The position numbers and the translations under genes were made by a program. The notes below the pieces were generated by a model. That model had not been told where the DNA came from. It worked only from the letters and a program-made list of their open reading frames with translations, and made no database searches. A stretch of DNA of 64,000 nucleotides from Limosilactobacillus pontis (lineage in GTDB: Bacteria; Bacillota; Bacilli; Lactobacillales; Lactobacillaceae). Each line of letters begins with the position of its first letter. Positions within the stretch are counted from its first letter, which is position 1. Positions 5,581-53,310 of the stretch are shown piece after piece. The stretch is from positions 10,982-74,981 of the forward strand of contig NZ_PNFV01000008.1 of NCBI RefSeq assembly GCF_002940945.1, given 5' to 3'.

Positions 5581-6801
5581 ATGCAATATACCGAAATTAT
5601 GGTTCGTTATGGCGAGCTATCCACCAAGGGTCATAATAAGAAGTCATTCATCGACCGTTTGGGTGACAATGTTCGGCACGCCCTGCATAGCTTTGATCAG
5701 GTCAAAGTTCACGCCCAGCGAGATCGTTTGCACGTTGAGCTCAACGGTGCGGACTATGACCAGGTGATGGACCGGTTAAAGCTGGTCTTTGGGATCCAGA
5801 ACTTTTCGCCATCGATCCGGGTGGAAAAATCTTTTGACGCCACAGCCAAGGCGGCTGCCCAGATGATCGAAGAACAGGTCGATCATCCAATCACCTTTAA
5901 GGTTGAGACACGGCGGTCAGATCACCACTTTGAATTAGACACCTTCGGAATGAACAACCAACTAGGGGGGTACCTGTTGGCGAAGTTCCCCGATAAGCTG
6001 AAGGTTGATGTTCACCACCCGGACTTGACACTGCGGGTTGAGATTCGGCTTAACGGAATCTACCTATCCAGTGAGACGATCAAGGGGGCTGGTGGAATGC
6101 CGGTTGGTACCGCTGGCAAGGGCATGATGATGATGTCCGGAGGGATTGACTCTCCAGTGGCTGCCTACCTGGCGATGAAGCGGGGCGTTTCCTTGGAGAT
6201 GGTCCACTTCTATAGTCCGCCGTACACCAGTCCACAAGCGTTGGCCAAGGCTCAGCAGCTGACGGAGCGGTTGGCTAAGTATAGTGGTAACATCCGCTTT
6301 ATCCAGGTACCATTCGCCGAAATCCAGGAAACCGTTAAGGAGAAGGTTCCTGAGGGTTATCTGATGACGGTTCAGCGACGAATGATGCTTCGTTTGGCAG
6401 CTGCCCTAATGGTTAAACGCCACGGTCTGGCAATCTTTAATGGGGAGTCTCTCGGTCAGGTGGCTTCCCAGACAATGGAGAGTATGTTAGCAATTAATGA
6501 CGTTACGACCTACCCAGTGTTGCGGCCGGTCCTTTCCTATGATAAGACTGAGATTATTAAGATCGCCGAGCAGATCGGCACCTATGATCTTTCTATTCTG
6601 CCATATGAGGACTGCTGTACGGTCTTCACGCCGCCATCGCCAAAGACTCGGCCAAGCGTAGAGCGGGCTCGCAAGTACGAGCAGCGTCTGGATATCGACG
6701 GTCTGATGAAGCGGTCGCTGGATGGTATCAAGATCACCAACATCCACCCAGGTGAGGACTTCCTCAATCAAAACGAGGACGTTTTTGCTGAATTGCTATA
6801 A
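5581..6801 (+). CDS. thiI: tRNA 4-thiouridine synthetase ThiI
   Basis: A 406-residue protein with an N-terminal ferredoxin-like/THUMP region (about 1-165) and a PP-loop ATP pyrophosphatase domain with the SGGIDSP motif (about residues 187-193). It adenylates U8 of tRNA for thiolation. As in many Firmicutes, it stops at about 400 residues and lacks the C-terminal rhodanese domain of E. coli ThiI. Sulfur transfer must therefore come straight from the adjacent cysteine desulfurase. The Shine-Dalgarno is GAAAGGAGG. The gene is cotranscribed with the desulfurase. Confidence 0.95.
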
Positions 6802-6843: not shown

Positions 6844-7088
6844 ATAATATAAGCGATGACCGAAATAGTAACGGAGTACTACGATTCACCAGAGAGGGTT
6901 GCTGCTGGAAAGACCTGGATCAGCTTCGCGAATGTAGCTCGGGAGCTGGTTTGTTGAAATTCAGTAGGCAGACCCGGTTCATTTACCGTTATTAAATGAA
7001 CAAGGGGGGCAGTCCACTAAGACTGCTCAACGTAGGTGGTACCGCGAAATCAATCGTCCTATCTGTTTAGATAGGGCGATTTTTATTT
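6844..7088 (+). promoter_or_regulatory. T-box riboswitch leader of valS (specifier GTA, valine)
   Basis: The T-box element GGTGGTACCGCG is at 7035-7046, followed by a Rho-independent terminator (7052-7088). In stem I, AGTA (6868-6871) faces GAA (6930-6932). The helix CGGAG/CTTCG lies above them and CCGA/TCGG below. The triplet after GAAT is GTA (6934-6936), a valine codon followed by G, which fits valS. The variable base of the UGGN bulge is U, able to pair with A73 of tRNA-Val. Uncharged tRNA-Val should favour the antiterminator and allow valS expression. Confidence 0.9.
7052..7088 (+). terminator. Regulated terminator of the valS T-box
   Basis: AATCGTCCTATCT pairs with AGATAGGGCGATT across a short loop and is followed by T-rich sequence. 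Confidence 0.85.
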
Positions 7089-17285: not shown

Positions 17286-17370
17286 TAACCAGTATGACTA
17301 ATTCGGCAAAAATGATGAGCGTTATTCCATTTTATTGACGCTTATCCTAATGGAAAGGAGAACATCGATA

Positions 17371-18621
17371 GTGCACTTTGATCTTGCCAGTGGCGTGGCT
17401 CTCCACGTTATCCCCACCAAGCAATTTAAGATGACACATGTTCTGATCACTTTTACCACGCCCCAGACACGTGATAACGCAACGGCTCGCAACCTTCTGG
17501 CCAACCTTCTTGAGACCAGTACCCATCGTTACCCGACTCAAACAGCCTTGGCCCGGCAACTGGCCAAGCTTTATGGGGCTTATGTTGGTATGGGAGTTGG
17601 TCGGGTTGGCCGCTTACATACGGTACGCTTACGAGCCAGTTTCGTCAACGACCAGATCGCCGGTACTAACCTCTTTGCTCAGGTGATTGACTTGATCAAT
17701 GAGATCCTCTTTCATCCCCTGATTGATGATAATGAGTTCGATGGCCCGACCTTTCGAATCCAGGCCCATAACCTGGAGCAGACCATCACTGCTATGTACG
17801 ATGACAAGCAGTTCTACGCTAACCGGCAACTGATGAAACTCTACTACCCATCGGATACCGTTATGCGGGTCCCTAGTTTCGGCCGGGTGGCTGACCTCAC
17901 CGACCTGACGGCACAGAACCTCGTTCCGGTATACCGGGATATGATTACGCATGACCGGGTTGATATCTTTGTGCTTGGCGACGTCGATCCAAATATGGTT
18001 AGGGATGAGATTGGTTTGTTGCCGTTTGCTGACCGGGAGATTCCATCGATGCGTCCTTACTACCAACAACCGCTCTTCCCAGCTGTTCAGCAACGGGTGG
18101 AACACCAGCCCGTTGTTCAGGCAAAGCTTAACCTGGGCTACCAGCTGCCGGTTTACTATCACGACCGCAACTATTACGCTGGGTTGGTCTTTAACGGCCT
18201 TTTTGGCGGTACGCCATATTCTAAGCTTTTTACCAATGTTCGGGAGAAGGCTAGTCTAGCTTACTATGCGACGAGCCGTCTTTTACCATTCACTGGCTTT
18301 TTAGGGGTTCAGACGGGAATCCAGTCCGCCGATGCTCAGCGGGTGGAGGATCTAATTGCCCAGCAGCTGGCTGATCTCAGTGTGGGAAAGTTCACGACCG
18401 AGCAACTGGTTGAGGTTCAGGATAGCCTGATTAACCAATACCGGGCTAGTCATGATTTGGCAAACAATATTCTAGGTCGTGAGCTCCTGCGGGCCTTGCT
18501 TAATCTGCCACCGGCAACCGCGGTTGCAGCGAAGATTAATGCGGTGACTCCCGAAGATGTCTCTCGGGTGGCCCAGATGGTGAAAATGCAGGCGATTTAC
18601 TTATTGAGTGGTGAGAAATAA
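17371..18621 (+). CDS. ymfF: M16-family (insulinase-like) protein YmfF, probably the non-catalytic partner
   Basis: A 416-residue protein of the pitrilysin/insulinase fold. The position where active M16 enzymes carry HxxEH reads LLANLLETSTHRYP, so the zinc site appears missing. It probably forms the substrate-guiding half of a pair with the downstream YmfH-like protein, as in other two-gene M16 peptidases. The start is a GTG at 17371, 10 bases after AAAGGAG; an in-frame TTG at 17335 lacks a ribosome site. The order ymfF-ymfH-rodZ-pgsA-cinA-recA matches B. subtilis. Its substrate is unknown. Confidence 0.88.
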   Translation: MHFDLASGVALHVIPTKQFKMTHVLITFTTPQTRDNATARNLLANLLETSTHRYPTQTALARQLAKLYGAYVGMGVGRVGRLHTVRLRASFVNDQIAGTNLFAQVIDLINEILFHPLIDDNEFDGPTFRIQAHNLEQTITAMYDDKQFYANRQLMKLYYPSDTVMRVPSFGRVADLTDLTAQNLVPVYRDMITHDRVDIFVLGDVDPNMVRDEIGLLPFADREIPSMRPYYQQPLFPAVQQRVEHQPVVQAKLNLGYQLPVYYHDRNYYAGLVFNGLFGGTPYSKLFTNVREKASLAYYATSRLLPFTGFLGVQTGIQSADAQRVEDLIAQQLADLSVGKFTTEQLVEVQDSLINQYRASHDLANNILGRELLRALLNLPPATAVAAKINAVTPEDVSRVAQMVKMQAIYLLSGEK

Positions 18622-28973: not shown

Positions 28974-28983
28974 GGTGAATAGT

Positions 28984-31005
28984 GTGGGAAAGATTCACGA
29001 GCTAGACACGGTCTTGGCCGACCAGATTGCTGCCGGGGAGGTGATTGAGCGGCCGGCCTCAATTGTTAAGGAACTGGTTGAAAATGCCTTAGATGCTCAT
29101 AGCCGACGGGTTGACATCATCGTGGAAAACTCGGGACTTGACAGCATCCGTGTAATCGATGATGGTGAGGGGATCGCCAATGATGACGTGCAATTGGCCT
29201 TCCAACGGCACGCAACTAGCAAGATTGCTAGTCGCAAGGACCTTTTTAAAGTGCAGACAATGGGCTTTCGGGGTGAGGCCCTACCCAGCATTGCCTCTGT
29301 TGCTGATGTCAGGATGGTGACCGCTCAGGCTGGCCAGGACGCCGGTACCCAGATTCACATCCGGGGTGGCGAGACCCTAGATAAGAAACCCGCCGCTGCC
29401 CGGCAAGGGACCGATGTCCGGGTCACTGACCTCTTTTTCAATACTCCGGCCCGTCTGAAGTATCTCAAATCGCCCCAGACAGAACTGACCAGAATCACAG
29501 ATATTATTAATCGATTGGCCTTAGCTAACCCAGCTGTTGCCTTCAGCTTTACCCACAACGATAAGGAAATCTTCCGTTCGGCCGGTAATGATAATCTCCA
29601 ACAGGTTATTGCTGCCATCTATGGAATCAAGGCTGGGCGTAAAATGCTATCAATTGCTGGCCAAGACGATGATTTTGCGGTCACTGGCTTTGTCTCGTTG
29701 CCTGAGTTGACCCGGGCATCACGCCAGTACATCACGATTACGATCAATCACCGTTATATCCGTAACTTCGAACTGACTAAGGCGATTATTCAGGGCTATG
29801 AATCCAAGTTGATGGTTGGTCGTTACCCGATTGCGGTTGTTAATGTCGAACTCGATCCGGTTCTGGTTGATGTGAATGTTCATCCGGCTAAGCGGGAGGT
29901 CCGACTGAGTAAGGAAGATCAGCTTACCAAGCTCATTGCCAGAACGATTCGGCAACGACTTGCCGGTGAAAACCTGATTCCCGATGTTGGTCCGGCCACA
30001 TTGGGACCAAGCGCCGACGACATTGCTGCCCTTGACCAACGTCTGAATGAGGCCGCCAGTCACTACCAGGTCGGTGGGGCGACACACTTCCAGCCGGATG
30101 AAGCAGCACCGCAGAGTGCTCAGTCGGCTACCAGTCCAAGTGCCGGACCAGCCAATGCTGATGCTGACGACAGTCAGGTGGCAGCACCGGTGGTTATCCA
30201 TCACGTTGCTGAATTGGAAGGTCCGGCAATGCAAGCCTTCGATCAACGTTACCGAACGGAGGGGGATGCCCAGCCATTTGGCTATCCCATGGATGATACT
30301 CTAGCCTCAAGCCAGTCAGTGCACTCGGCCCAGAATCTAGAGCTTGACGTCCACGATAAGAGCGATGAGGCTAAACAGCGTTTCCCGGATCTCCAATACA
30401 TTGGCCAGCTCCAGGGGACCTTTCTCCTGGCCCAGGCCGGGGACGGACTCTACATCGTCGATCAGCACGCTGCTCAGGAGCGGATCAACTACGAACGTTA
30501 CCGCAAGGAGGTTGGTCAGGTCAGCGGTGCCCAACAGGCCTTTCTGGTGCCACTGGTACTGAACTACTCGACAGTTGATGCGATGACCATCAATCAGCAC
30601 CGCGATACCCTGGCCGGAGTAGGGCTGAACCTGGAACCATTTGGGCAGAACAGTTTCATTCTCCGCTCTCACCCAACCTGGTTTAAGGAGGGGCAAGAGG
30701 AGGACACTGCTCGGGAGATGATTGAGTGGCTACTTAAGAATGGCAAGATCACCGTCCGGGAGTTTCGAATGAAGACAGCAATCATGATGAGTTGCAAGCG
30801 GGCGATCAAGGCTAATCACCACCTTGATGATCGTGAGGCTAAGGCTCTCCTGCACCGCCTGCCACAGTGTGAAAATCCTTTCAACTGTCCCCATGGGCGG
30901 CCGGTGACAGTCCACTTCAATGATCAGGACCTGGAGAAGATGTTTAAACGGATCCAGGACAGTCACACTCCATTTGCTGACGAGTTTGACGATCACGAAT
31001 TTTAA
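28984..31005 (+). CDS. mutL: DNA mismatch repair protein MutL
   Basis: A 673-residue GHKL ATPase with a C-terminal endonuclease domain. N-terminal motifs are ELVENALDAHS, DDGEGI and GFRGEALPSI. The C-terminal part carries DQHAAQERINYE, the DQHA(x)2E(x)4E metal site of nicking MutL proteins, and later CPHGRP. A poorly conserved Ala, Ser and Asp-rich linker joins the halves (about 355-465). The GTG at 28984 sits 6 bases after GAGGTG and yields MGKIHELDTVL; an in-frame GTG at 28975 is within that site. Confidence 0.97.
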   Translation: MGKIHELDTVLADQIAAGEVIERPASIVKELVENALDAHSRRVDIIVENSGLDSIRVIDDGEGIANDDVQLAFQRHATSKIASRKDLFKVQTMGFRGEALPSIASVADVRMVTAQAGQDAGTQIHIRGGETLDKKPAAARQGTDVRVTDLFFNTPARLKYLKSPQTELTRITDIINRLALANPAVAFSFTHNDKEIFRSAGNDNLQQVIAAIYGIKAGRKMLSIAGQDDDFAVTGFVSLPELTRASRQYITITINHRYIRNFELTKAIIQGYESKLMVGRYPIAVVNVELDPVLVDVNVHPAKREVRLSKEDQLTKLIARTIRQRLAGENLIPDVGPATLGPSADDIAALDQRLNEAASHYQVGGATHFQPDEAAPQSAQSATSPSAGPANADADDSQVAAPVVIHHVAELEGPAMQAFDQRYRTEGDAQPFGYPMDDTLASSQSVHSAQNLELDVHDKSDEAKQRFPDLQYIGQLQGTFLLAQAGDGLYIVDQHAAQERINYERYRKEVGQVSGAQQAFLVPLVLNYSTVDAMTINQHRDTLAGVGLNLEPFGQNSFILRSHPTWFKEGQEEDTAREMIEWLLKNGKITVREFRMKTAIMMSCKRAIKANHHLDDREAKALLHRLPQCENPFNCPHGRPVTVHFNDQDLEKMFKRIQDSHTPFADEFDDHEF

Positions 31006-31024
31006 CGAAAAGTAGGTTGAATCA

Positions 31025-31618
31025 ATGTATGAATATTTGACGGGGTTGGTTACTAGCGTGACTCCCCAGTATGTTGTCCTAGAAGTCGGTGGGGTCGGCT
31101 ACCAGTTATTTGTGGCAAATCCCTACCGCTTTCAGGAAGATGCAGAGAAAAAGGTCCGAATCTACGTTTACCAAGCAGTACGTGACGACGCCATCACACT
31201 GTTTGGTTTCATTGACCGGGCCGAGAAACAGCTCTTTTTACAGCTGATTAACGTTTCCGGAATCGGGCCGAAAAGTGCCTTGGCAATTCTGGCCAATCCT
31301 GACCACCAGGGATTGATTGACGCGATTGCCAACGATAACGTTGGCTACTTGACCAAATTCCCTGGGATTGGCAAGAAGACGGCCTCCCAAATTGTTCTGG
31401 ACCTCAAGGATAAGGTGGCCGGTATGACAAGTACCGCCCTGTTTTCCCCGGCAGTCCCAGTGGAGGCGGATAATCCGGCCCTGCAAGATGCCTTATCCGC
31501 TTTGTCTGCCCTAGGCTATAAGGAGCGGGACATCAAACGGATCAAGAAGCAATTATTAAAGGTGGACGCTAATACGACCCAAGAGTACCTGAGTCAGGCG
31601 TTAGCCCTGATTAACTAG
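31025..31618 (+). CDS. ruvA: Holliday junction branch migration protein RuvA
   Basis: A 197-residue protein with an OB-fold N-terminus ([20 protein letters not shown]), two helix-hairpin-helix motifs ([13 protein letters not shown] and [13 protein letters not shown], about residues 75-125) and a C-terminal RuvB-binding domain. It holds the Holliday junction so that RuvB can drive branch migration. It lies between mutL and ruvB, the usual Firmicutes order. Confidence 0.97.
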
Positions 31619-31633
31619 TTAGGAGGCGATTAG

Positions 31634-32647
31634 ATGGCTGAGGATCATGGACTGATGTCCGATCATTCCCAAAACGACGCGGAGGAACAGATTGAGATGA
31701 CATTGCGTCCACAACGTCTGCGTGACTATATCGGTCAGGATAAAATTAAACATGAACTGAGTGTTTATATTCAGGCAGCACAGGCGCGTGAGGAAGCGTT
31801 AGACCATGTCCTGTTGTATGGCCCCCCGGGCCTGGGAAAGACAACCCTGGCAATGGTGATTGCCCACGAGATGGGGGTTAATATCAAGACCACCAGTGGG
31901 CCAGCGATCGAGAAGCCTGGTGACCTGGTGGCTATGCTTAATGAGCTTAAGCCTGGCGATGTCCTTTTCATCGACGAGATTCACCGCCTGCCCAAGGTAG
32001 TCGAAGAGATGCTCTATTCGGCGATGGAGGATTACTACATTGATATTGTGGTCGGGGAGGGGCCAACCGCCCACCCGGTTCATTTCCCCTTGCCACCCTT
32101 TACCCTGATTGGGGCCACTACCCGAGCCGGAATGTTATCTGCCCCACTACGGGATCGCTTTGGTATTGTCGAGCATATGAACTATTACAACCAGGATGAA
32201 CTCAAACAAATCATCTTTCGTTCGGCTAAGATCTTTGAAACCCAGATCGAGGATGAGGGGGCTCATGAGTTAGCACTGCGATCCCGAGGGACTCCTCGAA
32301 TCGCCAACCGTCTGCTCAAGCGAGTTCGCGACTTTGCTCAGGTAGCGGGGAAGCCCAGCATTGACTCTGCTACTGTCAGCAAGGCCCTTGACCTGCTCCA
32401 GGTAGACCGTCAGGGGCTCGATGAGATTGATCGTAAAATGCTATTGACAATGATCAACTACTACCATGGTGGCCCAGTCGGCCTGAAGACGATCGCCGCC
32501 AACATCGGCGAAGAAACCAACACGATTGAGGAAATGTATGAACCCTACCTGCTGCAGATTGGCTTTATCAGCCGAACACCACGGGGGCGGGTGGTTACGC
32601 CAGATGCTTACCGGCACCTGGGAATCAGCTATCCAACGGATAAATGA
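31634..32647 (+). CDS. ruvB: Holliday junction branch migration ATPase RuvB
   Basis: A 337-residue AAA+ motor. Walker A is [11 protein letters not shown] (about residues 60-70), Walker B FIDEIHRL, sensor 1 lies in GATTRAG and the arginine-finger region in PLRDRFG. A C-terminal winged-helix DNA-binding domain ends the protein. The ribosome site GGAGGCG precedes the ATG. Its stop overlaps an ATG of the next gene's frame (ATGA), but that gene more likely begins at 32659. Confidence 0.98.
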
Positions 32648-32658
32648 AGGAAGAGACG

Positions 32659-33729
32659 ATGAGTAAGAAGTTAACCTTTCAGATCAAACAGCAATACCGG
32701 AATATGCGGGTCGGTACGGTGACGGTTAACGGCCGTCAGTTGACGACCCCGGCAATCGTCCAGACGGGGAGTGCCCTGACTATCCTGACTCCGACAGAGC
32801 TGAAGGCGTGCGGGGTTCAGGCCATCAAGCAGGATGCTATCGATTACTGGTGTGATAGTCAGTCCGGGGACCTACACGATTTGCTCGGCTGGCCCGGGAT
32901 TCTGGTGACATCTTCTGGGGCTGAGCGGGCTTATCAATGGGCTAAACCCCGTGGTCGTAAACAGGATGGAGTCAGTTTCCATGACCCTAATAGCGGCCAG
33001 CTGAAGTTTTACACCCCCGAGGCGGCCTTGACTATGCAGAAGGAACTCGGGACCGACATCAGTCAGGGTTTTGCTCGGGATGATGACTACTTTGCACCAG
33101 TCGACGACCTCAATGTGGCTGCTGAGCAAACAGCCGGGTGGCTGACCGCCCAACCGGCACTAGCTGGTGACCTGGCTCCGGTGGTCGGGGGAGGTTTGAA
33201 AAGGGTTCGCCAAGCCAGCCAGGCTGCTGTTCCGGCAACCGTGACCGGCTATAGTATTCTGGGGGTTGGTCCGGATGTGCCAACCGCTGAGCAAGTTCGC
33301 TTGCTCAGCGAGTTGATAGACATGCTGGAGCCTGCTAAGCTGCGCTACCTGCCGACGACCGGCGACTTTCATCAGTTGGTCGCCATGCTGTTAGGTGGGG
33401 TTGACATGATCGATAGTGATTTAGCTGGTCGTGAAGCCGCGATGGGAAACGCCCTGGTTGGCCTGGAGCGGCTCCACCTTGATCGGGAGCGTTTTGCTGA
33501 TGACGGTCACCCACTAGCGGAGCGGTGTAGTTGTCCAACCTGTCGCGCTGGAGTTTCTCGGGCGACAATTCACCACTTCTTGATTACCGGTCAACCGGTC
33601 GGGGAGCGTTATCTGCTCCTCCATAACCTCTTCGCCGTCAATCAATTAGTTGCACATGTGCGGTCGATGATTGCGAGAAAACAGGTATCAGACGACCTGC
33701 GTAAATTTGCTGAACAGCATGACCAATAG
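32659..33729 (+). CDS. Divergent TGT-family protein with an altered active site
   Basis: A 356-residue member of the tRNA-guanine transglycosylase fold, at the position (ruvB-yajC) where lactobacilli usually have queA-tgt. The zinc site is kept: Cys290, Cys292, Cys295 and His305 in ERCSCPTC...SRATIH. So is an Asp at the nucleophile position (Asp252 in VDMIDSDLAGRE). The canonical TDSGGFQ has become VTSSGAER (83-90), replacing the catalytic Asp with Ser85. The AFDE base-recognition stretch reads GFARDD, GIVQGG reads APVVGGG, and GGLSVGE reads SILGVGPD. Guanine exchange of the normal kind therefore looks doubtful. The start at 32659 fits AAGGA. Whether it is an enzyme for another base, an RNA-binding relic or something new is open. 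Confidence 0.85.
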   Translation: MSKKLTFQIKQQYRNMRVGTVTVNGRQLTTPAIVQTGSALTILTPTELKACGVQAIKQDAIDYWCDSQSGDLHDLLGWPGILVTSSGAERAYQWAKPRGRKQDGVSFHDPNSGQLKFYTPEAALTMQKELGTDISQGFARDDDYFAPVDDLNVAAEQTAGWLTAQPALAGDLAPVVGGGLKRVRQASQAAVPATVTGYSILGVGPDVPTAEQVRLLSELIDMLEPAKLRYLPTTGDFHQLVAMLLGGVDMIDSDLAGREAAMGNALVGLERLHLDRERFADDGHPLAERCSCPTCRAGVSRATIHHFLITGQPVGERYLLLHNLFAVNQLVAHVRSMIARKQVSDDLRKFAEQHDQ

Positions 33730-33793
33730 TGGCTTTTTATAATAAAGTTTGTTACAGTTATTGGTGAGTATTTTTGAAGGGATGGATATTACT

Positions 33794-34267
33794 GTGAATA
33801 GTTTAACTTTTGGAATTTTAGGTGCCGCTAGTGCGGGAGCAAGTAGTTACTCCGGAATCATCCTAATCCTGTTGATGATTGCTCTGATGTACTTCTTCAT
33901 GATTCGGCCACAACAGAAACAACGTAAGCAACACCAAGATATGATGAGTAACCTGCATCCTGGGGATGAGGTTGTCACCATCGGTCGGCTGCACGGTAAG
34001 ATCGATTCGATCAACGAAACTGACCGGACGGTAACCTTAGACTGTGAAGGAATTTACCTTACCTTTGATATGGTAGCCATTGCCAGGGTTGTTAAGACCG
34101 ATAGCAGTAAGGAAAATACCGCCGATCAACCAGCTTCAGCTGCACCAGCGGCTGACACCAGCGACCAACCGACTGCTGACGAGAAGGCTTCAGCAGCAGA
34201 TAAAGCAGCCACGGATGATTCCGCGGCCGACTCCGCTAGCGACCAGGCTGCCGATCAGGAAAAGTAA
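33794..34267 (+). CDS. yajC: Preprotein translocase accessory subunit YajC
   Basis: A 157-residue protein with a membrane segment (about residues 16-37), the typical MIRPQQKQRKQHQDMMSNL stretch after it, and the YajC core GDEVVTIGRLHGKID. YajC associates with SecDF and the translocon. It is longer than usual (about 85-115) because of an acidic tail of Ala, Asp and Ser residues from about 105 on. The start is probably GTG at 33794 after GGATGGA; an ATG at 33782 lies too close to its purine-rich stretch. A TATAAT at 33737 may promote it separately. Confidence 0.9.
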   Translation: MNSLTFGILGAASAGASSYSGIILILLMIALMYFFMIRPQQKQRKQHQDMMSNLHPGDEVVTIGRLHGKIDSINETDRTVTLDCEGIYLTFDMVAIARVVKTDSSKENTADQPASAAPAADTSDQPTADEKASAADKAATDDSAADSASDQAADQEK

Positions 34268-34421
34268 TTGACTAATCCTGTAAAAAGTGGGAAACTTTTA
34301 ACGGAAGTTTGATTAAATGCGCTTACCGCCCGTTTTCTCAGACACGACGTTTACGCGTCTTTATCCCTTGCTGAGGGCTGCATTTCCTTAGTGAGACTGT
34401 AAATACAGGAGGGAAATTCTA

Positions 34422-35327
34422 ATGCAAATCGGATTGATTGGTTTAGGTAAGATGGGTATCCACCTTTGCCAAAACATGTTGCGCAATGACAACCAAGTGG
34501 TTGCCTTTGACCTTGACAAGAAGTTAGTTGAAGAAGCTGCTTCTTATGGTGCCGAGCCTGCCTACACCCTGGAAGAAATGGTTAAGAAGCTTAACCAGCC
34601 ACGGACCGTTTGGGTCATGGTTCCAGCCGGCAAGCCAACTGATTCTACGATGGACCAACTAGCAGACCTGCTCGATGCTGACGATACGGTTATCGATGGT
34701 GGAAACACTTTCTGGAAGGACTCCGTACGTCATAACCGTATGTTCACCGAAAAGGGTATTCACTACTTCGACTGCGGTTCTTCCGGTGGTTGGAAGGGTG
34801 CTCTTAAAGACGGTAATTTCATGATCGGTGGGGATGACGAGGACATCTTCAACGAACGTCTTGCTCCATTATTCGACGGTATTGCTAAGAAGGATGGTTA
34901 CCTTTACACCGGTAAGGCTGGCTCTGGTCACTACCTTAAGATGGTTCACAATGCCATTGAATACGGAATGATGGAAGCCATTGGTGAAGGTTTCGAAATT
35001 CTGGAAGCTTCTGACTTCGACTACGACAATGCAGCCGTTTCCAAGATGTGGAACCATGGTTCTGTTATCCGTTCCTGGCTGATGGAACTGGCTCAAGAAG
35101 CCTTTGAAAAGGACCCACACCTGGATAAGATTGCCGGTCGGATGCACAGTTCTGGTGAAGCTCACTGGACCCTGATGGACGCAATGGACAAGCAAATACC
35201 AACACCAGTCATCTACGAAGCATTAAGTCAGCGGTTCCGTTCAATGCAAGACGACTCCTTCGATGGAAAGGTTGTTTCTGCATTGCGGAACGGTTTTGGT
35301 GGCCACGCAATGGACGCTGCCAAGTAA
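34422..35327 (+). CDS. gnd: 6-phosphogluconate dehydrogenase, decarboxylating (short form)
   Basis: A 301-residue oxidoreductase converting 6-phosphogluconate to ribulose-5-phosphate and CO2. The Rossmann motif GLIGLGKMGIHL opens the protein. The substrate motif reads DCGSSGGWKGAL (about residues 116-127), and the catalytic lysine lies in GSGHYLKMVHNAIEYGMM (about 168-185). The length matches the short GntZ/YqeC-type enzymes rather than the 470-residue form. In heterofermenters it feeds the phosphoketolase pathway. The 154-base gap before it shows no promoter I trust. Its own terminator follows. Confidence 0.93.
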   Translation: MQIGLIGLGKMGIHLCQNMLRNDNQVVAFDLDKKLVEEAASYGAEPAYTLEEMVKKLNQPRTVWVMVPAGKPTDSTMDQLADLLDADDTVIDGGNTFWKDSVRHNRMFTEKGIHYFDCGSSGGWKGALKDGNFMIGGDDEDIFNERLAPLFDGIAKKDGYLYTGKAGSGHYLKMVHNAIEYGMMEAIGEGFEILEASDFDYDNAAVSKMWNHGSVIRSWLMELAQEAFEKDPHLDKIAGRMHSSGEAHWTLMDAMDKQIPTPVIYEALSQRFRSMQDDSFDGKVVSALRNGFGGHAMDAAK

Positions 35328-35356
35328 ACTAATGATTTTCTATTAGTTTCTTTAAT

Positions 35357-35396
35357 AAATACCTCTCGCCAATTAGCGGGAGGTATTTATTTTTTA
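35357..35396 (+). terminator. gnd terminator
   Basis: AATACCTCTCGC pairs with GCGGGAGGTATT around AATTA, followed by TATTTTTT. Confidence 0.88.
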
Positions 35397-35399
35397 AAA

Positions 35400-35428
35400 T
35401 TGGCCCGCTTGACGATTACTGGTATACT
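35400..35428 (+). promoter_or_regulatory. nrnA promoter
   Basis: TTGGCC (35400-35405), 17 bases, TATACT (35423-35428) with an upstream TGG extended -10. Confidence 0.6.
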
Positions 35429-35467
35429 TAATTATTAGAACAATTTTGGATAAGAGGGTAAATAATC

Positions 35468-36424
35468 ATGGCTGATCAATTAGCAGCAATTTTTGCACAA
35501 ATCAAGAAATACAATAAAATTATCATCCACCGGCATCAGCGTCCCGACCCGGATGCCATCGGCTCCCAGGTAGGGTTAGCAGAGATCTTGAAGGCCTCCT
35601 TCCCTTATAAGCAGATTTATGTGGTCGGTAAACATATTCCAGGATTCGACTGGATTGGAACGATGGACGAGATCGATAATGAAACCTTTGACGATGCTCT
35701 AGTAATCGTTACTGACACCGCTAACGCACCGCGAATTGACGACCGACGCTTCAATAACGGGGACGAGCTGATCAAGATTGATCACCATCCAAATGACGAG
35801 CCCTTCGGTGACCTGATGTGGGTCGAACCGGATGCATCCAGCTGTTCGGAGATGATCTACGCCTTCTACCAGCACTTTGCCAAGGAGCTGAAATTGCCAA
35901 GGAATGCCGCTAGCGCTCTTTACGCTGGAATTATTGGTGATACTGGTCGCTTCCTTTATCCAGCGACGACCCCACGGACAATGCTGGTTGCTGGGGCTCT
36001 GATGGCGGCCGGGGCAGATGCAGCTGCTATCAGCCAGCGGGAGAATGAGATTACCCTGCCCCTGGCACGTCTGTCGGCCTACGTTTACGAACACTTGACC
36101 ATCCTGGACCACGGGGCGGCCTACGTCGTGCTGACCAATGATCTGCTGACCAAGTTTGGATTGAGTGAGGCTGGGACCTCTGCAGTGGTCTCCCTGCCAG
36201 GGCGGATCAAGGATGTGACTGCCTGGGCGATCTTTGTTGAGCAGGAGGAAGGGCACTATCGGATCCGGCTACGCTCCAAGGGGCCATCCATCAATGGACT
36301 GGCTAAGAAACACAATGGTGGGGGGCACGCCCTGGCCAGCGGGGCCAAGGCCCAGGATCAGGATGAGATCAAACAGGTGATCGCTGAGCTAGATCAGCTG
36401 ACGACCGATTACGCAACGAAATAA
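35468..36424 (+). CDS. nrnA: DHH-family phosphoesterase NrnA (oligoribonuclease / pAp phosphatase)
   Basis: A 318-residue DHH/DHHA1 enzyme. Metal motifs are HRPDPDAIGS-like HRHQRPDPDAIG (about residues 22-33), VTDTAN (about 81-86) and KIDHHPND (about 102-109). The DHHA1 end has NGGGHALASGA. NrnA degrades 2-5 nucleotide RNAs and dephosphorylates pAp in B. subtilis. A c-di-AMP-related function is seen in relatives with extra domains, which are absent here. It is followed after 18 bases by a DEAD-box helicase gene, suggesting a shared RNA-turnover operon. Confidence 0.93.
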   Translation: MADQLAAIFAQIKKYNKIIIHRHQRPDPDAIGSQVGLAEILKASFPYKQIYVVGKHIPGFDWIGTMDEIDNETFDDALVIVTDTANAPRIDDRRFNNGDELIKIDHHPNDEPFGDLMWVEPDASSCSEMIYAFYQHFAKELKLPRNAASALYAGIIGDTGRFLYPATTPRTMLVAGALMAAGADAAAISQRENEITLPLARLSAYVYEHLTILDHGAAYVVLTNDLLTKFGLSEAGTSAVVSLPGRIKDVTAWAIFVEQEEGHYRIRLRSKGPSINGLAKKHNGGGHALASGAKAQDQDEIKQVIAELDQLTTDYATK

Positions 36425-36442
36425 CGGAGAGGAACTGACTAA

Positions 36443-37816
36443 ATGACCGAAAATAAGTTTAAGAACTTCAAGCTGCCACCGTACTTAATCAAGGCGGTGC
36501 AGGCGATCAACTTTTACCAACCGACGCCGATTCAAGAACGGGTTATCCCGGACATTCTGAAGGGGCAGAGTGTTGTTGGCCAGTCAGCAACCGGAAGTGG
36601 GAAGACTCATGCCTTTCTATTGCCGCTCTTTGCCCGGATTAATCCTGATGTTCAAGCGGTGCAGGCAGTCATTACCACCCCAAGCCGGGAACTAGCCTAC
36701 CAGATCTATAGTGCCGCCAAGCAGCTGAATAAGTTTGCCCCACAAGCACTAACGATTCATAACTACGTTGGTGGTACCGATAAGCAGCATCAGCTTGATC
36801 AGCTGGCCCGTAAGCAGCCGCAACTGGTTATCGGAACCCCGGGACGGGTGCTTGATCTGATCAAGAGTCAGGCCCTAGATATCCATACGGCAACAATGTT
36901 TGTTGTTGATGAGGCTGATATGACCCTCGACATGGGCTTCTTAGAGCAAGTTGACCAGATCGCCAGTAACTTCCCAGCGGATCTTCAGATGATGGTCTTC
37001 TCAGCAACGATCCCAAAGAAGCTGCGGCCATTTTTAAAAAAGTATATGGCTAATCCCGAGGTTGAGGAGATTCCGACGCAGGCGGTCATCAACCCCGACG
37101 TGCAAAATTGGCTGATGTCGACCAAGGGTCAGGATAAGAATCAGTTGATTTACCGTCTTCTGACGATGGGTGAACCTTACCTGGCGCTCGTTTTCGCTAA
37201 TACCAAAGAGCGGGTCGAAGAGTTGACTCACTATTTGGAAGAGCAAGGGCTTAAAGTTGCCATGATTCACGGTGGACTGGAAGCACGTCGACGAAAGCGG
37301 ACGATGCGGCAAGTACGAAATCTGGATTACCAGTATGTAGTAGCCACTGACCTGGCTGCTCGGGGGATTGATATCGACGGGGTTTCCCTGGTGATCAATG
37401 ATGATATTCCGACTGACCTGGAATACTTCATCCATCGCGTTGGCCGGACAGGCCGCAACGGGATGACTGGGACAGCGATTACCCTTTACGCTCCGGCTGA
37501 AGATGACCTGATTGCTAAGTTGGAAGAACGGGGGATCAAGTTTGTTCCCAAGGTACTACGCAATGGTCGGCTGGTTACAACTCATGACCGGAATCGGCGG
37601 AAGAATTACCGTCGCAAGCGGGCCGAACTGGATCCATCCATGAAGGGCTTTGTTAAAAAGACCAAGAAGCGGGTTAAGCCGGGCTATAAGAAACGGATCA
37701 AACGGGCCATCAGAGAGGACGAACAGGAAAAGCACCGACTCGAGCTTCGTCACAAGATTCGTAAAGCCAAGCGGCAACGCCAGCGGCAGCACCGTCGGGA
37801 ACGGAATGCCCGTTGA
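36443..37816 (+). CDS. cshB: DEAD-box ATP-dependent RNA helicase, CshB-like
   Basis: A 457-residue RNA helicase. In order: Q motif (INFYQPTPIQERVIP), motif I ATGSGKT (about residue 50), TPGRVLD, DEAD in VVDEADMTLDMGF, SAT, TDLAARGIDI and HRVGRTGRNG. The C-terminal tail (about 375-457) is very rich in Arg and Lys, typical of CshB, which assists cold growth and ribosome assembly. It is cotranscribed with nrnA. The alaS promoter begins right at its stop codon. Confidence 0.93.
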   Translation: MTENKFKNFKLPPYLIKAVQAINFYQPTPIQERVIPDILKGQSVVGQSATGSGKTHAFLLPLFARINPDVQAVQAVITTPSRELAYQIYSAAKQLNKFAPQALTIHNYVGGTDKQHQLDQLARKQPQLVIGTPGRVLDLIKSQALDIHTATMFVVDEADMTLDMGFLEQVDQIASNFPADLQMMVFSATIPKKLRPFLKKYMANPEVEEIPTQAVINPDVQNWLMSTKGQDKNQLIYRLLTMGEPYLALVFANTKERVEELTHYLEEQGLKVAMIHGGLEARRRKRTMRQVRNLDYQYVVATDLAARGIDIDGVSLVINDDIPTDLEYFIHRVGRTGRNGMTGTAITLYAPAEDDLIAKLEERGIKFVPKVLRNGRLVTTHDRNRRKNYRRKRAELDPSMKGFVKKTKKRVKPGYKKRIKRAIREDEQEKHRLELRHKIRKAKRQRQRQHRRERNAR

Positions 37817-37841
37817 TTTTGGCGGACAAGTTCGCTATAAT
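37813..37841 (+). promoter_or_regulatory. Promoter of the alaS T-box transcript
   Basis: TTGATT (37813-37818), 17 bases, TATAAT (37836-37841). The -35 overlaps the cshB stop codon. Confidence 0.8.
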
Positions 37842-37847
37842 ATGACT

Positions 37848-38058
37848 CGTTTGGGACATGCCGGCCAGGTACGATTTTCAGAAACGGTTGGGTTGCTGTG
37901 ACGACCGATGAATACCTGGCGGGTGCTCCCCATTCATAAAATTTGATATTCAACTCGGCCAATGTCGAGAAATAAGAGGTAAACGAAATCCATCGTTGCA
38001 AGCAGAGTGGTACCGCGTCGTCCGGCGTCTCTGATCGCAAGGATGGATTTTGTTTTGG
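37848..38058 (+). promoter_or_regulatory. T-box riboswitch leader of alaS
   Basis: The T-box element AGTGGTACCGCG is at 38006-38017, with U as the variable base, able to pair with A73 of tRNA-Ala. Stem I shows GCCAGGTA (37864-37871) pairing with TACCTGGC (37913-37920). Just below it the sequence reads GGGTGCTCCCC with a GCT alanine codon at 37925-37927. Unlike the valS and importer leaders it shows no clear GATGA or AGTA motifs in stem I. A long stem, AAATCCATCGTTGC (37986-37999) with GCAAGGATGGATTT (38037-38050), encloses the T-box and is followed by TGTTTT. Confidence 0.85.
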
Positions 38059-38071
38059 AAAGGGAGATACT

Positions 38072-40726
38072 ATGAAAGAATTAAAGAAGCTGAATAGTGC
38101 TCAGGTTCGGCGGATGTATCTAAAGTTCTTTGAGGAACATGGGCATAAGATCATGCCAAGTGCGTCACTGGTTCCAGTCAATGACCCAACCCTGCTTTGG
38201 ATCAACTCTGGGGTGGCTACGATGAAGAAATACTTCGATGGCAAGGTTGTGCCGGAGAACCCACGGATGACTTCATCTCAGAAGAGTATTCGAACCAATG
38301 ATATTGAAAATGTGGGAAAAACTGCCCGTCACCACACCATGTTCGAGATGCTGGGGAACTTCTCCGTTGGTGATTACTTCAAGAATGAGGTTATTCCTTG
38401 GGCCTGGGAACTGTTGACCAGTGACAAGTGGTTTGGGTTTGATCCCGAACGGCTCTACATCACCTATTACCCAAAGGATCATGATGCTTACAACAGATGG
38501 CGTGAGGTTGGAGTAGCCAAGGATCACCTGATTCCGGATGAGGACAACTTCTGGGATATTGGTCAAGGGCCATCTGGTCCAGATACCGAGATTTTCTACG
38601 ATCGTGGGCAGGAATTTAACAACCTGGCCGATGACGATCCTGAGAACTACCCAGGTGGGGAAAATGAACGTTACCTAGAGATCTGGAATATTGTCTTCAG
38701 TCAGTTCAATCATACCCCTGAAGATACCTACGAGCCGCTGCCCCACAAGAACATTGATACCGGAATGGGGCTTGAGCGGGTGGTTTCCATCTTTGAAAAC
38801 GCCCCAACTAACTTTGAAACCGACCTCTTTATGCCACTGATCAAGCAGACTGAGCAGTTCAGCGGGACGAAGAAATATGGTGAGAACAAGGAAGATGATA
38901 TCCAGTTCAAGATTATCGCCGACCACATTCGGACGATTACTTTTGCTATCGGGGATGGTGCCTTACCATCCAACATGGGTCGGGGTTACGTCATCCGGCG
39001 TCTGTTGCGGCGGGCCGTAGTGGCTGGCAAGAAGCTGGGCATCGACGAGCCATTCCTGGCCAAGATGGTTCCAACAGTTGGTAAGATCATGCAGGACTAC
39101 TATCCAGATGTTCTGGAAAATGCCGACTACATTGCTTCTGTCATCAAGTCCGAGGAAGATCGTTTTAGCGCAACCCTGAATGGCGGTCTGAACCTACTGA
39201 ACAACGTAATCGCTGAGGCCAAGAAGAATGGTACTAACGAGATCGATGGCAAGACTGCCTTTAAGCTCTACGATACTTACGGCTTTCCAATTGAGCTGAC
39301 CAAGGAATATGCTGGCGATGAAGGCCTGACGGTTGATCAAAAAGGATTTGAGGCCGCGATGATCGAGCAGCAGAACCGGGCTCGTAACGCTCGTGATATG
39401 GATAATGGAATGGGAGTTCAGACTGACCTGTGGACCGACTTTAAGGAAGCAAGTAAGTATGTCGGCTATACCGACCTGAGTGTTGATAACGCCAAGGTGA
39501 TCGGTCTTGCTCACGACGGTAAGCAGGCAGATTCTGCCAATGTTGATGATAAGAACATTGAGGTTATCTTTGACGTTACCCCATTCTACGCCGAGATGGG
39601 TGGTCAAGTAGCCGACACCGGTGATATCATCGATAATTATGGCAAGAAGATTGGCCGGGTTGTCGACGTTCAGCACGCTCCAAACCAGCAGAATTTGCAC
39701 CGGGTTGAATTGACGGCACCAATCAAGAAGGGGGCCCGTTACAAGCTGGTTGTTGACCGGCTCCGTCACCTGAAAATTGAGAAGAACCATACTGCTACCC
39801 ACCTGTTGGATCAGGCCCTGCGTAACGTCTTGGGTGGACACACCCAGCAGGCCGGCTCCCTGGTTGAAGAGCATTACCTGCGCTTCGACTTTAACCACTT
39901 CGGTCAGGTCACGGCCAAGGATTTGCGGGCGGTTGAACAGATGGTCAACGAGCAGATTTGGAAGGAAATTCCAGTCAAGACCGTTGAAACCGACATTGAC
40001 TCGGCCAAGGAGATGGGAGCTATCGCCCTCTTCTCTGATAAGTATGGTGACAAGGTTCGGGTTGTTAAGATTGGCGATTACAACACTGAATTCTGTGGTG
40101 GTGACCATGTCAAGAACACCAATGAGCTCGGTCTCTTCAAGATTGTCTCTGAAGGTGGGGTTGGTGCTGGCGTTCGGCGGATTGAAGCCGTTACTTCCAG
40201 CGACGCCTTCAAGTTCTTGCAGGATCGGGACAACCTGCTGAATCAGACGGCTGACGAACTGAAGACTGCCCAGATCAAGGAGGTTCCTCACCAGGTCGCT
40301 GCTCTTCAGGCGGAATTAAAGGAAACTCAAAAGAAGAGTGCGGCTCTTGAAGCTAAGATTGCGGCTCAGCAGGCCAACAACGTCTTCGAGAACGTTCAGG
40401 ATACCAAGCAGGGGACGCTAATTGCCGCCGAGGTCAAGGTAGCCGGGATGGGACAACTCCGGCAGCTGGCTGATAGCTGGCGGGCTAAGCAGCTCTCCGA
40501 CGTGCTGGTCCTTGGTACGGCCAACGACGGCAAGGCTAACCTGCTGGTTGCTGTCAGCGACGACAAGGTTAAGGGCGGCATGAAAGCCGGCGACTTGATC
40601 AAGTCGATTGCTAAAGCCATCAACGGTGGTGGCGGTGGACGGCCAAACCTTGCCCAGGCTGGTGGTAAGAACCCAGCCGGGATTCAGGATGCTCTGAAGC
40701 TTGCTAAGGAATACATGGATAAGTAG
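38072..40726 (+). CDS. alaS: Alanyl-tRNA synthetase
   Basis: An 884-residue class II synthetase. The catalytic core has HHTMFEMLGNFSVGDYF and GMGLERVVSI. The editing domain has HTATHLLDQALR (about residues 570-581) and the CGGDH zinc motif (about 675). The C-terminal oligomerisation domain ends with GGGGGRPNLAQAGG. Length is typical. It charges tRNA-Ala and clears Ser- and Gly-tRNA-Ala. It is preceded by its T-box leader and followed by a terminator, then ireB-ruvX as in most Firmicutes. Confidence 0.98.
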   Translation: MKELKKLNSAQVRRMYLKFFEEHGHKIMPSASLVPVNDPTLLWINSGVATMKKYFDGKVVPENPRMTSSQKSIRTNDIENVGKTARHHTMFEMLGNFSVGDYFKNEVIPWAWELLTSDKWFGFDPERLYITYYPKDHDAYNRWREVGVAKDHLIPDEDNFWDIGQGPSGPDTEIFYDRGQEFNNLADDDPENYPGGENERYLEIWNIVFSQFNHTPEDTYEPLPHKNIDTGMGLERVVSIFENAPTNFETDLFMPLIKQTEQFSGTKKYGENKEDDIQFKIIADHIRTITFAIGDGALPSNMGRGYVIRRLLRRAVVAGKKLGIDEPFLAKMVPTVGKIMQDYYPDVLENADYIASVIKSEEDRFSATLNGGLNLLNNVIAEAKKNGTNEIDGKTAFKLYDTYGFPIELTKEYAGDEGLTVDQKGFEAAMIEQQNRARNARDMDNGMGVQTDLWTDFKEASKYVGYTDLSVDNAKVIGLAHDGKQADSANVDDKNIEVIFDVTPFYAEMGGQVADTGDIIDNYGKKIGRVVDVQHAPNQQNLHRVELTAPIKKGARYKLVVDRLRHLKIEKNHTATHLLDQALRNVLGGHTQQAGSLVEEHYLRFDFNHFGQVTAKDLRAVEQMVNEQIWKEIPVKTVETDIDSAKEMGAIALFSDKYGDKVRVVKIGDYNTEFCGGDHVKNTNELGLFKIVSEGGVGAGVRRIEAVTSSDAFKFLQDRDNLLNQTADELKTAQIKEVPHQVAALQAELKETQKKSAALEAKIAAQQANNVFENVQDTKQGTLIAAEVKVAGMGQLRQLADSWRAKQLSDVLVLGTANDGKANLLVAVSDDKVKGGMKAGDLIKSIAKAINGGGGGRPNLAQAGGKNPAGIQDALKLAKEYMDK

Positions 40727-52446: not shown

Positions 52447-53310
52447 TTGACAACACGTAGTGAATTACGGGCCCAGCGAACGGCCGCCCAAAGGACTGAA
52501 CCGACTCCGCAGCAAGTACCTGAACCGGATATGGCACCAGAGAAGAGTCACCACTTTTTCAACTTCTGGGGAACCATCTTCCTAATCCTCTTCGTGTTGA
52601 GTACAATTCTTAACGCAACGATTCTTAACCCGAAGTTTGTCCTGCACGAGGTTCGGGATTCGGTGGTGGAGACGACAATCACTGATCAGGTCAATGGGGC
52701 CTTAGAACGATACGGGGTACCAACCTCGCTTCTGACCGACAAGGATACCGATAACCTACTCAATCAGGCAGTCAATCAGGTCTATGCCGGCAAGAATATT
52801 CACCTTGACCTCAGCTCAGTTACTCAGCGGGCCGGAGCGACGACTGATAACGAGCTTGCTCAGTACGGTCTTGCAGGGATCGGCAATACAGTTTCGGCCA
52901 ACTTAGGACAGAGTGTCAATAATGTGGTTAACAGCCAGCTGAACACGCCTGGAGTGGCTCGGCTGGCCAACGGTATTCACCTTGCTCGTTTGACCAGTAA
53001 TGCCGTTTTTGCGTTAACTGGTATTGGCCTGTTGGTCCTGGCGGTGTTAGGGTTTCTTGGGCACCACTTTACCCGTAGCTTTAGTCGGATGGGAGTTTGG
53101 ACGGTGGTCATTGACGGTGCCATCTGTGGTATAGTTGGCAAGCTGGCCCCGCAGCTGGCAGCCGACCAGCCTGACTATACCGCCTTTGTTGCCCAGTTGG
53201 CGACCAGCTTCATGCACACGGCTTGGGCAACCATTGGCTTGGTCCTTGTGGTGACTATCGGCCTATTTATCTGGCGGGTATTCGCCGGGCGCTTGCTTTC
53301 CCGTCGGTAA
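52447..53310 (+). CDS. Conserved membrane protein of unknown function
   Basis: A 287-residue protein that I do not recognise. The first 35 residues are hydrophilic and rich in Pro, Gln and Arg. A membrane helix follows (about 42-62), then an extracytoplasmic Thr, Asn and Val-rich region (about 63-185) and three further hydrophobic segments (about 187-206, 216-236, 258-280). The TTG at 52447 is the best start, but the ribosome site is weak. Only 6 bases separate it from the ccpA stop, so it is probably cotranscribed with and coupled to ccpA. Confidence 0.75.
   Translation: MTTRSELRAQRTAAQRTEPTPQQVPEPDMAPEKSHHFFNFWGTIFLILFVLSTILNATILNPKFVLHEVRDSVVETTITDQVNGALERYGVPTSLLTDKDTDNLLNQAVNQVYAGKNIHLDLSSVTQRAGATTDNELAQYGLAGIGNTVSANLGQSVNNVVNSQLNTPGVARLANGIHLARLTSNAVFALTGIGLLVLAVLGFLGHHFTRSFSRMGVWTVVIDGAICGIVGKLAPQLAADQPDYTAFVAQLATSFMHTAWATIGLVLVVTIGLFIWRVFAGRLLSRR

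Follow-up and report, generated by a model that had tools for sequence, protein, structure and literature searches.

A transglycosylase-fold protein with an altered catalytic pocket at the ruvB-yajC locus of Limosilactobacillus pontis

The locus

Proteins with the tRNA-guanine transglycosylase (TGT) fold are automatically named as queuosine enzymes, and surveys infer queuosine salvage from the presence of a tgt gene. The gene considered here lies in a 64,000-nucleotide stretch of Limosilactobacillus pontis (assembly GCF_002940945.1, contig NZ_PNFV01000008.1, positions 10,982 to 74,981 of the forward strand), called the window below, and codes for a TGT-fold protein that probably has a job different from that of Tgt. 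ORF calling identified it as an intact open reading frame (ORF) of 356 codons, encoding 356 amino acids, set between ruvB and yajC as follows:

31634..32647, + strand, ruvB, the upstream neighbour (identity read by eye from the translated ORF; blastn match to the annotated ruvB of Latilactobacillus curvatus)
32647-32651, + strand, Shine-Dalgarno-like AAGGA, 7 nt 5′ of the ATG
32659..33729, + strand, the TGT-fold gene, a low-scoring Tgt relative (ORF and profile matches)
33749..34267, + strand, yajC, the downstream neighbour (TIGR00739, 72.2 bits, cut-off 44.2)

An alternative in-frame ATG at 32644, upstream of this start, overlaps the ruvB stop codon, and scans for promoters and terminators around the TGT-fold gene returned nothing convincing. 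The gene order in the window was mutS-mutL-ruvA-ruvB-TGT-fold gene-yajC (mutS, mutL, ruvA and ruvB being named by eye), and the annotation of the same stretch in L. curvatus reads mutS, mutL, Maf, a TIGR00730 protein, ruvA, ruvB, queA, a GNAT protein, tgt and yajC. The locus thus fits the replacement of a queA-tgt pair, the position assigned to it in a first-pass annotation made from the letters alone. The absence of queA noted there also held, since the L. curvatus QueA query had no match in the 64-kb window (best E 0.40). Similarly, the L. curvatus Tgt matched the TGT-fold gene (28% identity) and otherwise gave E 0.98 or worse, so that no second Tgt was detected in the window. Library scans of 30 of the 63 window ORFs named no queuosine gene among the matches listed, and no preQ1 (pre-queuosine 1) riboswitch reached the Rfam gathering score in the window, where the sole Rfam match was a T-box. 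In this same stretch ruvA directly follows mutL (28975-31618), the Maf and TIGR00730 genes that stand between them in L. curvatus being missing.

Fold, catalytic pocket and zinc site

The protein matched PF01702 over its whole length (182.2 bits, E 1.9e-53, gathering cut-off 26.3). Its predicted structure, with a predicted local distance difference test score (pLDDT) of 93, presented a full TGT barrel with the zinc subdomain, and Foldseek aligned the model with TGT chain 1q2r_A at a template modelling score (TM-score) of 0.88, in agreement with the whole-length relationship proposed in the first-pass annotation. The comparison with curated Tgt models and the structural model that the annotation had recommended placed the protein within the fold and outside the bacterial Tgt equivalog: TIGR00430 was failed by 158 bits (148.6 against a cut-off of 306.75), and the archaeal TgtA model TIGR00432, with a cut-off of 350 bits, gave 18.3. 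Identity to a set of 23 canonical Tgts was 22-29%; for reference, when the L. curvatus Tgt is compared with the 12 sampled canonical Tgts that do not belong to its own group of 11, identity is 44-70%.

Canonical positions follow the numbering of Z. mobilis Tgt, anchored on motifs and on the mutant names in PDB titles. We take D102 and D156 to be the base-binding Asp pair, Q203 to be the pocket Gln and R289 to be a tRNA contact, the role of R286 being likewise assumed. Asp280 is described as the Tgt nucleophile in a passage of PMC3660597. Alignment of the window protein with the canonical set and with 58 full-length members of its own family, its own sequence included, located the following elements:

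32911..32925, + strand, S85-E89, at canonical D102-S103-G104-G105-F/Y106
33073..33078, + strand, A139-R140, at canonical D156-E157
33184..33198, + strand, V176-L180 (VGGGL), with V176 at canonical Q203 and with G178, G179 and L180 newly fixed
33412..33414, + strand, D252, at nucleophile position D280; Asp in 50/58 members
33526..33543, + strand, zinc cysteines C290, C292 and C295; Cys in 57/58 members each
33622..33624, + strand, H322 of HNL, at the fourth zinc ligand position (H349); His in 58/58 members and 23/23 canonical Tgts

The pocket is therefore rewritten much as had been described from the sequence, with Ser85 replacing the Asp of the TDSGG motif, A139-R140 standing where AFDE is expected, and Asp252 aligned with the nucleophile. 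One assignment in that description needed correction: His322, not His305, is the fourth zinc ligand. His305 aligns with position 332, beside the position that titles of PDB mutant entries name as His333; the three cysteines were rightly assigned. VQGG is lost only in part, its Gln being gone and the following glycines kept, and most of the GGLSVGE loop is lost, only G202 (G230) of its seven residues remaining.

Among nine canonical active-site residues tested, the window protein retains S103, G230, D280 and R286. The complete set of nine was present in all 23 canonical Tgts and in none of the 58 family members. In the family, the D102 position is Asp in 27/58 members and the D156 position in 15/58, E157 is replaced by Arg (48/58) or Gln (10/58), Q203 is kept in 0/58, G230 in 50/58, R286 in 26/58 and R289 in only 7/58. 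The nucleophile itself is replaced in eight members (Gln in four, Glu in three, Tyr in one) and is thus dispensable in this family. At the dimer-interface positions 330 and 333, Tyr and His are kept in only 17/58 members each. As a separate observation on the zinc site, three Bacteroidota Tgts (L001, L004 and L005) keep all nine active-site residues and the zinc His, and zinc cysteines are missing from them, two in L001 and all three in L004 and L005.

The family and its conserved positions

Relatives were collected by a single-sequence search (46) and a profile search (64, of which 18 were new), both of which scored only the approximately 8,000 candidates sharing most words. Two of the new ones, P0184 and P0185, carry canonical motifs. 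Organism names were attached to 12 of the 62 other relatives, nine of them Limosilactobacillus (pontis, kribbianus, frumenti, balticus twice, agrestis, sp. STM2_1 and two metagenome-assembled genomes, MAGs), so that the family is named in five species of the genus. The remaining three were one Lactobacillaceae MAG, Lactobacillus sp. Marseille-P7033 and one partial Corynebacterium sp. MAG, the last being presumably a binning error. One relative, P0002, is 98% identical to the window protein. The 58 full-length members exclude the partial P0018, P0041 and P0183; L002, L003 and L006 were unused, and P0186 and P0187 were counted apart. Both of these have the TGT fold, neither has a zinc ligand or an active-site Asp, and YYAPVDD, GGG and E..R are kept; P0187 has 20 member sequences. 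The canonical set of 23 comprised 11 loci (three Bacteroidota and eight plasmid-collection records), P0048, P0185 and 10 proteins drawn from the best 120 of 7999 matches to a canonical Tgt; the partial P0184 was excluded, and one row, L012, was translated from an internal Met and misses its N-terminus. No report of this Limosilactobacillus TGT-like family was found among the openly licensed PubMed Central papers listed.

In a midpoint-rooted tree of the 83 proteins, several long rows of which were flagged by the tool, the 23 canonical Tgts formed one side of a branch that is 2.58 changes per column long and has support 100/100, the longest branch drawn inside the canonical group being at most 0.68. 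Despite this divergence, 34 columns were invariant in 58/58 members, between which identity drops as low as 28%. Seventeen of these columns are inherited, at least 80% of canonical Tgts having the family's residue there. Twelve others vary in canonical Tgts and are fixed in the family (A95, K96, K101, P110, Q127, Y144, D149, D150, G178, G179, E211 and R214), and five fixed residues are absent from all 23 canonical Tgts (P97, G99, P147, V148 and L180). Apart from Q127 and the G178-L180 part of VGGGL, the newly fixed positions lie in three elements:

32941..32988, + strand, residues 95-110, block AKPRGRK..GVSFHDP by alignment, ten residues invariant in 58/58 (newly fixed A95, K96, P97, G99, K101 and P110; inherited R98, G104, V105 and F107)
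33088..33111, + strand, Y144-L151, block YxAPVDDL, with Y144, P147, V148, D149 and D150 invariant in 58/58 and also present in P0186/P0187
33289..33300, + strand, E211 and R214, an invariant charged pair present in 12/23 and 11/23 canonical Tgts, respectively

The distribution of constraint along the protein was also altered. The site rates estimated for the family and for the canonical set correlated at a Spearman coefficient of only 0.28; the coefficient was 0.62 when two clades of the family were compared, and 0.46 for two canonical groups. Between family and canonical Tgts, 30 and 30 columns were slow on one side and fast on the other, against 12 and 8 in the family split and 23 and 9 in the canonical split, an excess that is clear relative to the family control and modest relative to the canonical one. 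A different majority residue was found in 21 of the 30 newly slow columns. The catalytic-side region, comprising the loops at the C-terminal strand ends of the barrel and the 95-119 hairpin (106/356 residues, with barrel sides inferred from strand order in the model and not from coordinates), held 19 of the 30 newly slow columns (hypergeometric P 7e-5) and 16 of the 30 lost ones (P 0.004), P values that are descriptive because the region was defined after the conserved blocks had been seen. Thirteen canonical active-site columns had a mean rate percentile of 0.40 in the family, compared with 0.16 in canonical Tgts.

Possible roles and competing explanations

The window protein shares with bacterial Tgt its whole-length fold, the zinc Cys3His site, the nucleophile-position Asp and a chromosomal place before yajC; it differs in lacking the base-binding Asp pair, the pocket Gln and most of GGLSVGE, in its newly fixed blocks, in scoring far under the family cut-off and in having no queA beside its gene. 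The explanation that we favour, by a modest degree and from comparative sequence data, is that a tgt gene was rebuilt in place and now codes for a TGT-like protein binding RNA or another ligand instead of exchanging bases. The ancestor would have been a normal tgt at a ruvB-queA-tgt-yajC locus. queA is missing at this place, as observed in the window, and queuosine may have been abandoned, in which case selection on preQ1 exchange would have ceased. The protein changed very fast, by the approximately 2.6 changes per column of the branch separating the family from the 23 canonical Tgts sampled, and it retained its fold along with the zinc site and some of the barrel core. Fixation reached further residues that lie on the same catalytic side or close to it, namely A95, K96, P97, G99 and K101 of the hairpin, the start of the YxxPVDD helix, the GGL after strand 5 and E211/R214. 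Guanine to preQ1 exchange would have been lost, and the rebuilt barrel mouth would most likely bind RNA or a small ligand, the RNA being possibly still an anticodon arm of tRNA. The conserved basic hairpin and the Tgt ancestry make RNA the most probable partner. The first-pass annotation had left the choice among another base, another RNA and a structural role; the data lean to a binding role because the nucleophile is lost in 8/58 members and R289 is kept in only 7/58.

More tentatively, K96, K101, Y144, D149, D150, E211 and R214 could make up a new site at the barrel mouth, whether active or binding, with a substrate that would not be preQ1 and probably not G34 either; this would make the family an obsolete queuosine enzyme converted in Limosilactobacillus, with a branch (P0186/P0187) also devoid of the zinc site. 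If the rebuilt site does have a new substrate, it would offer a change of enzyme job traceable in place within one genus, and would show the fate of a tRNA-modifying enzyme after the loss of its pathway. DpdA proteins, TGT-like DNA-modifying proteins of the same superfamily, are an example of the TGT fold moved to another substrate; unlike them, the window gene stands in a housekeeping operon. The window protein had no PADLOC-DB match and a best PHROGs match of E 0.27, the presence of a DpdA model in these libraries being unconfirmed. Archaeal TgtA belongs to the same superfamily and differs in size, the matched archaeal PDB chain having 582 residues and the window protein 356. The automatic name of the family members is 'queuine tRNA-ribosyltransferase family protein', and they could therefore be miscounted as queuosine users, even though they have a pocket that cannot recognise preQ1 in the manner of known Tgts.

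Several observations weigh against a rebuilt binding protein. D252, S103, G230, R286 and the zinc site are retained in the window protein, and half of the invariant columns, hairpin R98 among them, are merely Tgt inheritance. D102, D156 and the nucleophile occur together in 14/58 members, mostly in a clade with L. balticus and L. agrestis, and P0171 scores 206 bits against Tgt, so that the chemistry may persist in such proteins. The modest excess over the canonical rate control and the descriptive regional P values count on the same side. Moreover, a passage of PMC11130926 states that plaque lactobacilli rely primarily on imported queuosine precursors, and queuosine abandonment is therefore not general in lactobacilli.

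A first alternative is an active transglycosylase with a changed base, in which D252 would attack ribose 34, or another site, to insert neither guanine nor preQ1. The nucleophile Asp and G230, each in 50/58 members, the three Asp together in 14, and the polar residues newly fixed close to the old pocket would all suit such an enzyme, but the Gln, Glu or Tyr at the nucleophile position of eight members, the loss of Q203 throughout, the rarity of R289 and the variability of D102 and D156 within the family make it rather doubtful.

It is less probable still that the protein is a non-catalytic, QTRT2-like partner that helps a canonical Tgt encoded elsewhere to place the tRNA. According to a passage of PMC3660597, the zinc ligands are retained in the two subunits of eukaryotic TGT and the catalytic residues are present in only one. 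The limosilactobacilli family resembles QTRT2 in that the zinc site is kept while catalytic residues drift and are lost in part of its members, and the scarcity of Tyr and His at positions 330 and 333 could suit a heterodimer. Unlike QTRT2, the window protein retains the nucleophile Asp along with its zinc site and has no known partner, the family profile scores the catalytic QTRT1 chains (175 bits) over QTRT2 chains (71 bits), and the window held no second Tgt. In addition, PMC6593275 reports, in a passage on the subject, that many Lactobacillus spp. are without all queuosine enzymes, qTGT included.

A normal Tgt inserting queuosine at position 34 (Q34) and tolerating unusual pocket residues is very unlikely: the whole-length PF01702 match, the zinc site and the nucleophile Asp would be expected of it, but D102, D156 and Q203 are all replaced, and the TIGR00430 shortfall and the 22-29% identity set the protein apart. 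Least credible is a functionless, decaying tgt relic, for which the raised rate of the active-site columns could speak and against which stand the intact full-length frames, the window gene's own having already been cited to this end in the first-pass annotation, and the 34 invariant columns, with 17 newly fixed ones among them, in a protein database that lists open frames only and where pseudogene copies would therefore be invisible. On the contrary, with 58 full-length members sharing these columns, the gene looks maintained by selection.

No relatives were found in viral contigs with queries A1 and the L. curvatus Tgt, and a scan of genome contigs with P0001 returned five loci, all Bacteroidota with a canonical TDSGG motif. 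Window DNA at 30500-38400 matched 48 and 71 phage and plasmid records, with identity under 90% and query coverage under 80% in every case, and none of the 20 phage or plasmid DNA matches listed overlapped the TGT-fold gene. Unannotated records named as phages (hits H46-H51) hold a tgt-like gene, which we suspect to be bacterial DNA in phage assemblies. Likewise, L007 (CP117684.1), a 592-kb record named as an L. curvatus plasmid, looks like a chromosome because it carries mutS, mutL, ruvAB, queA, tgt and yajC.

Elsewhere in the window, an ORF of 287 amino acids at 52447-53310, without a Pfam match at E 1e-6, follows a LacI-type regulator, and the T-box leader (6847-7064) lies just 5′ of valS. 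The window also carries thiI (5581-6801) and, at 17335-18621, YfmF, named as associated with the 5-aminopentanol modification of EF-P (NF047422, 421 bits).
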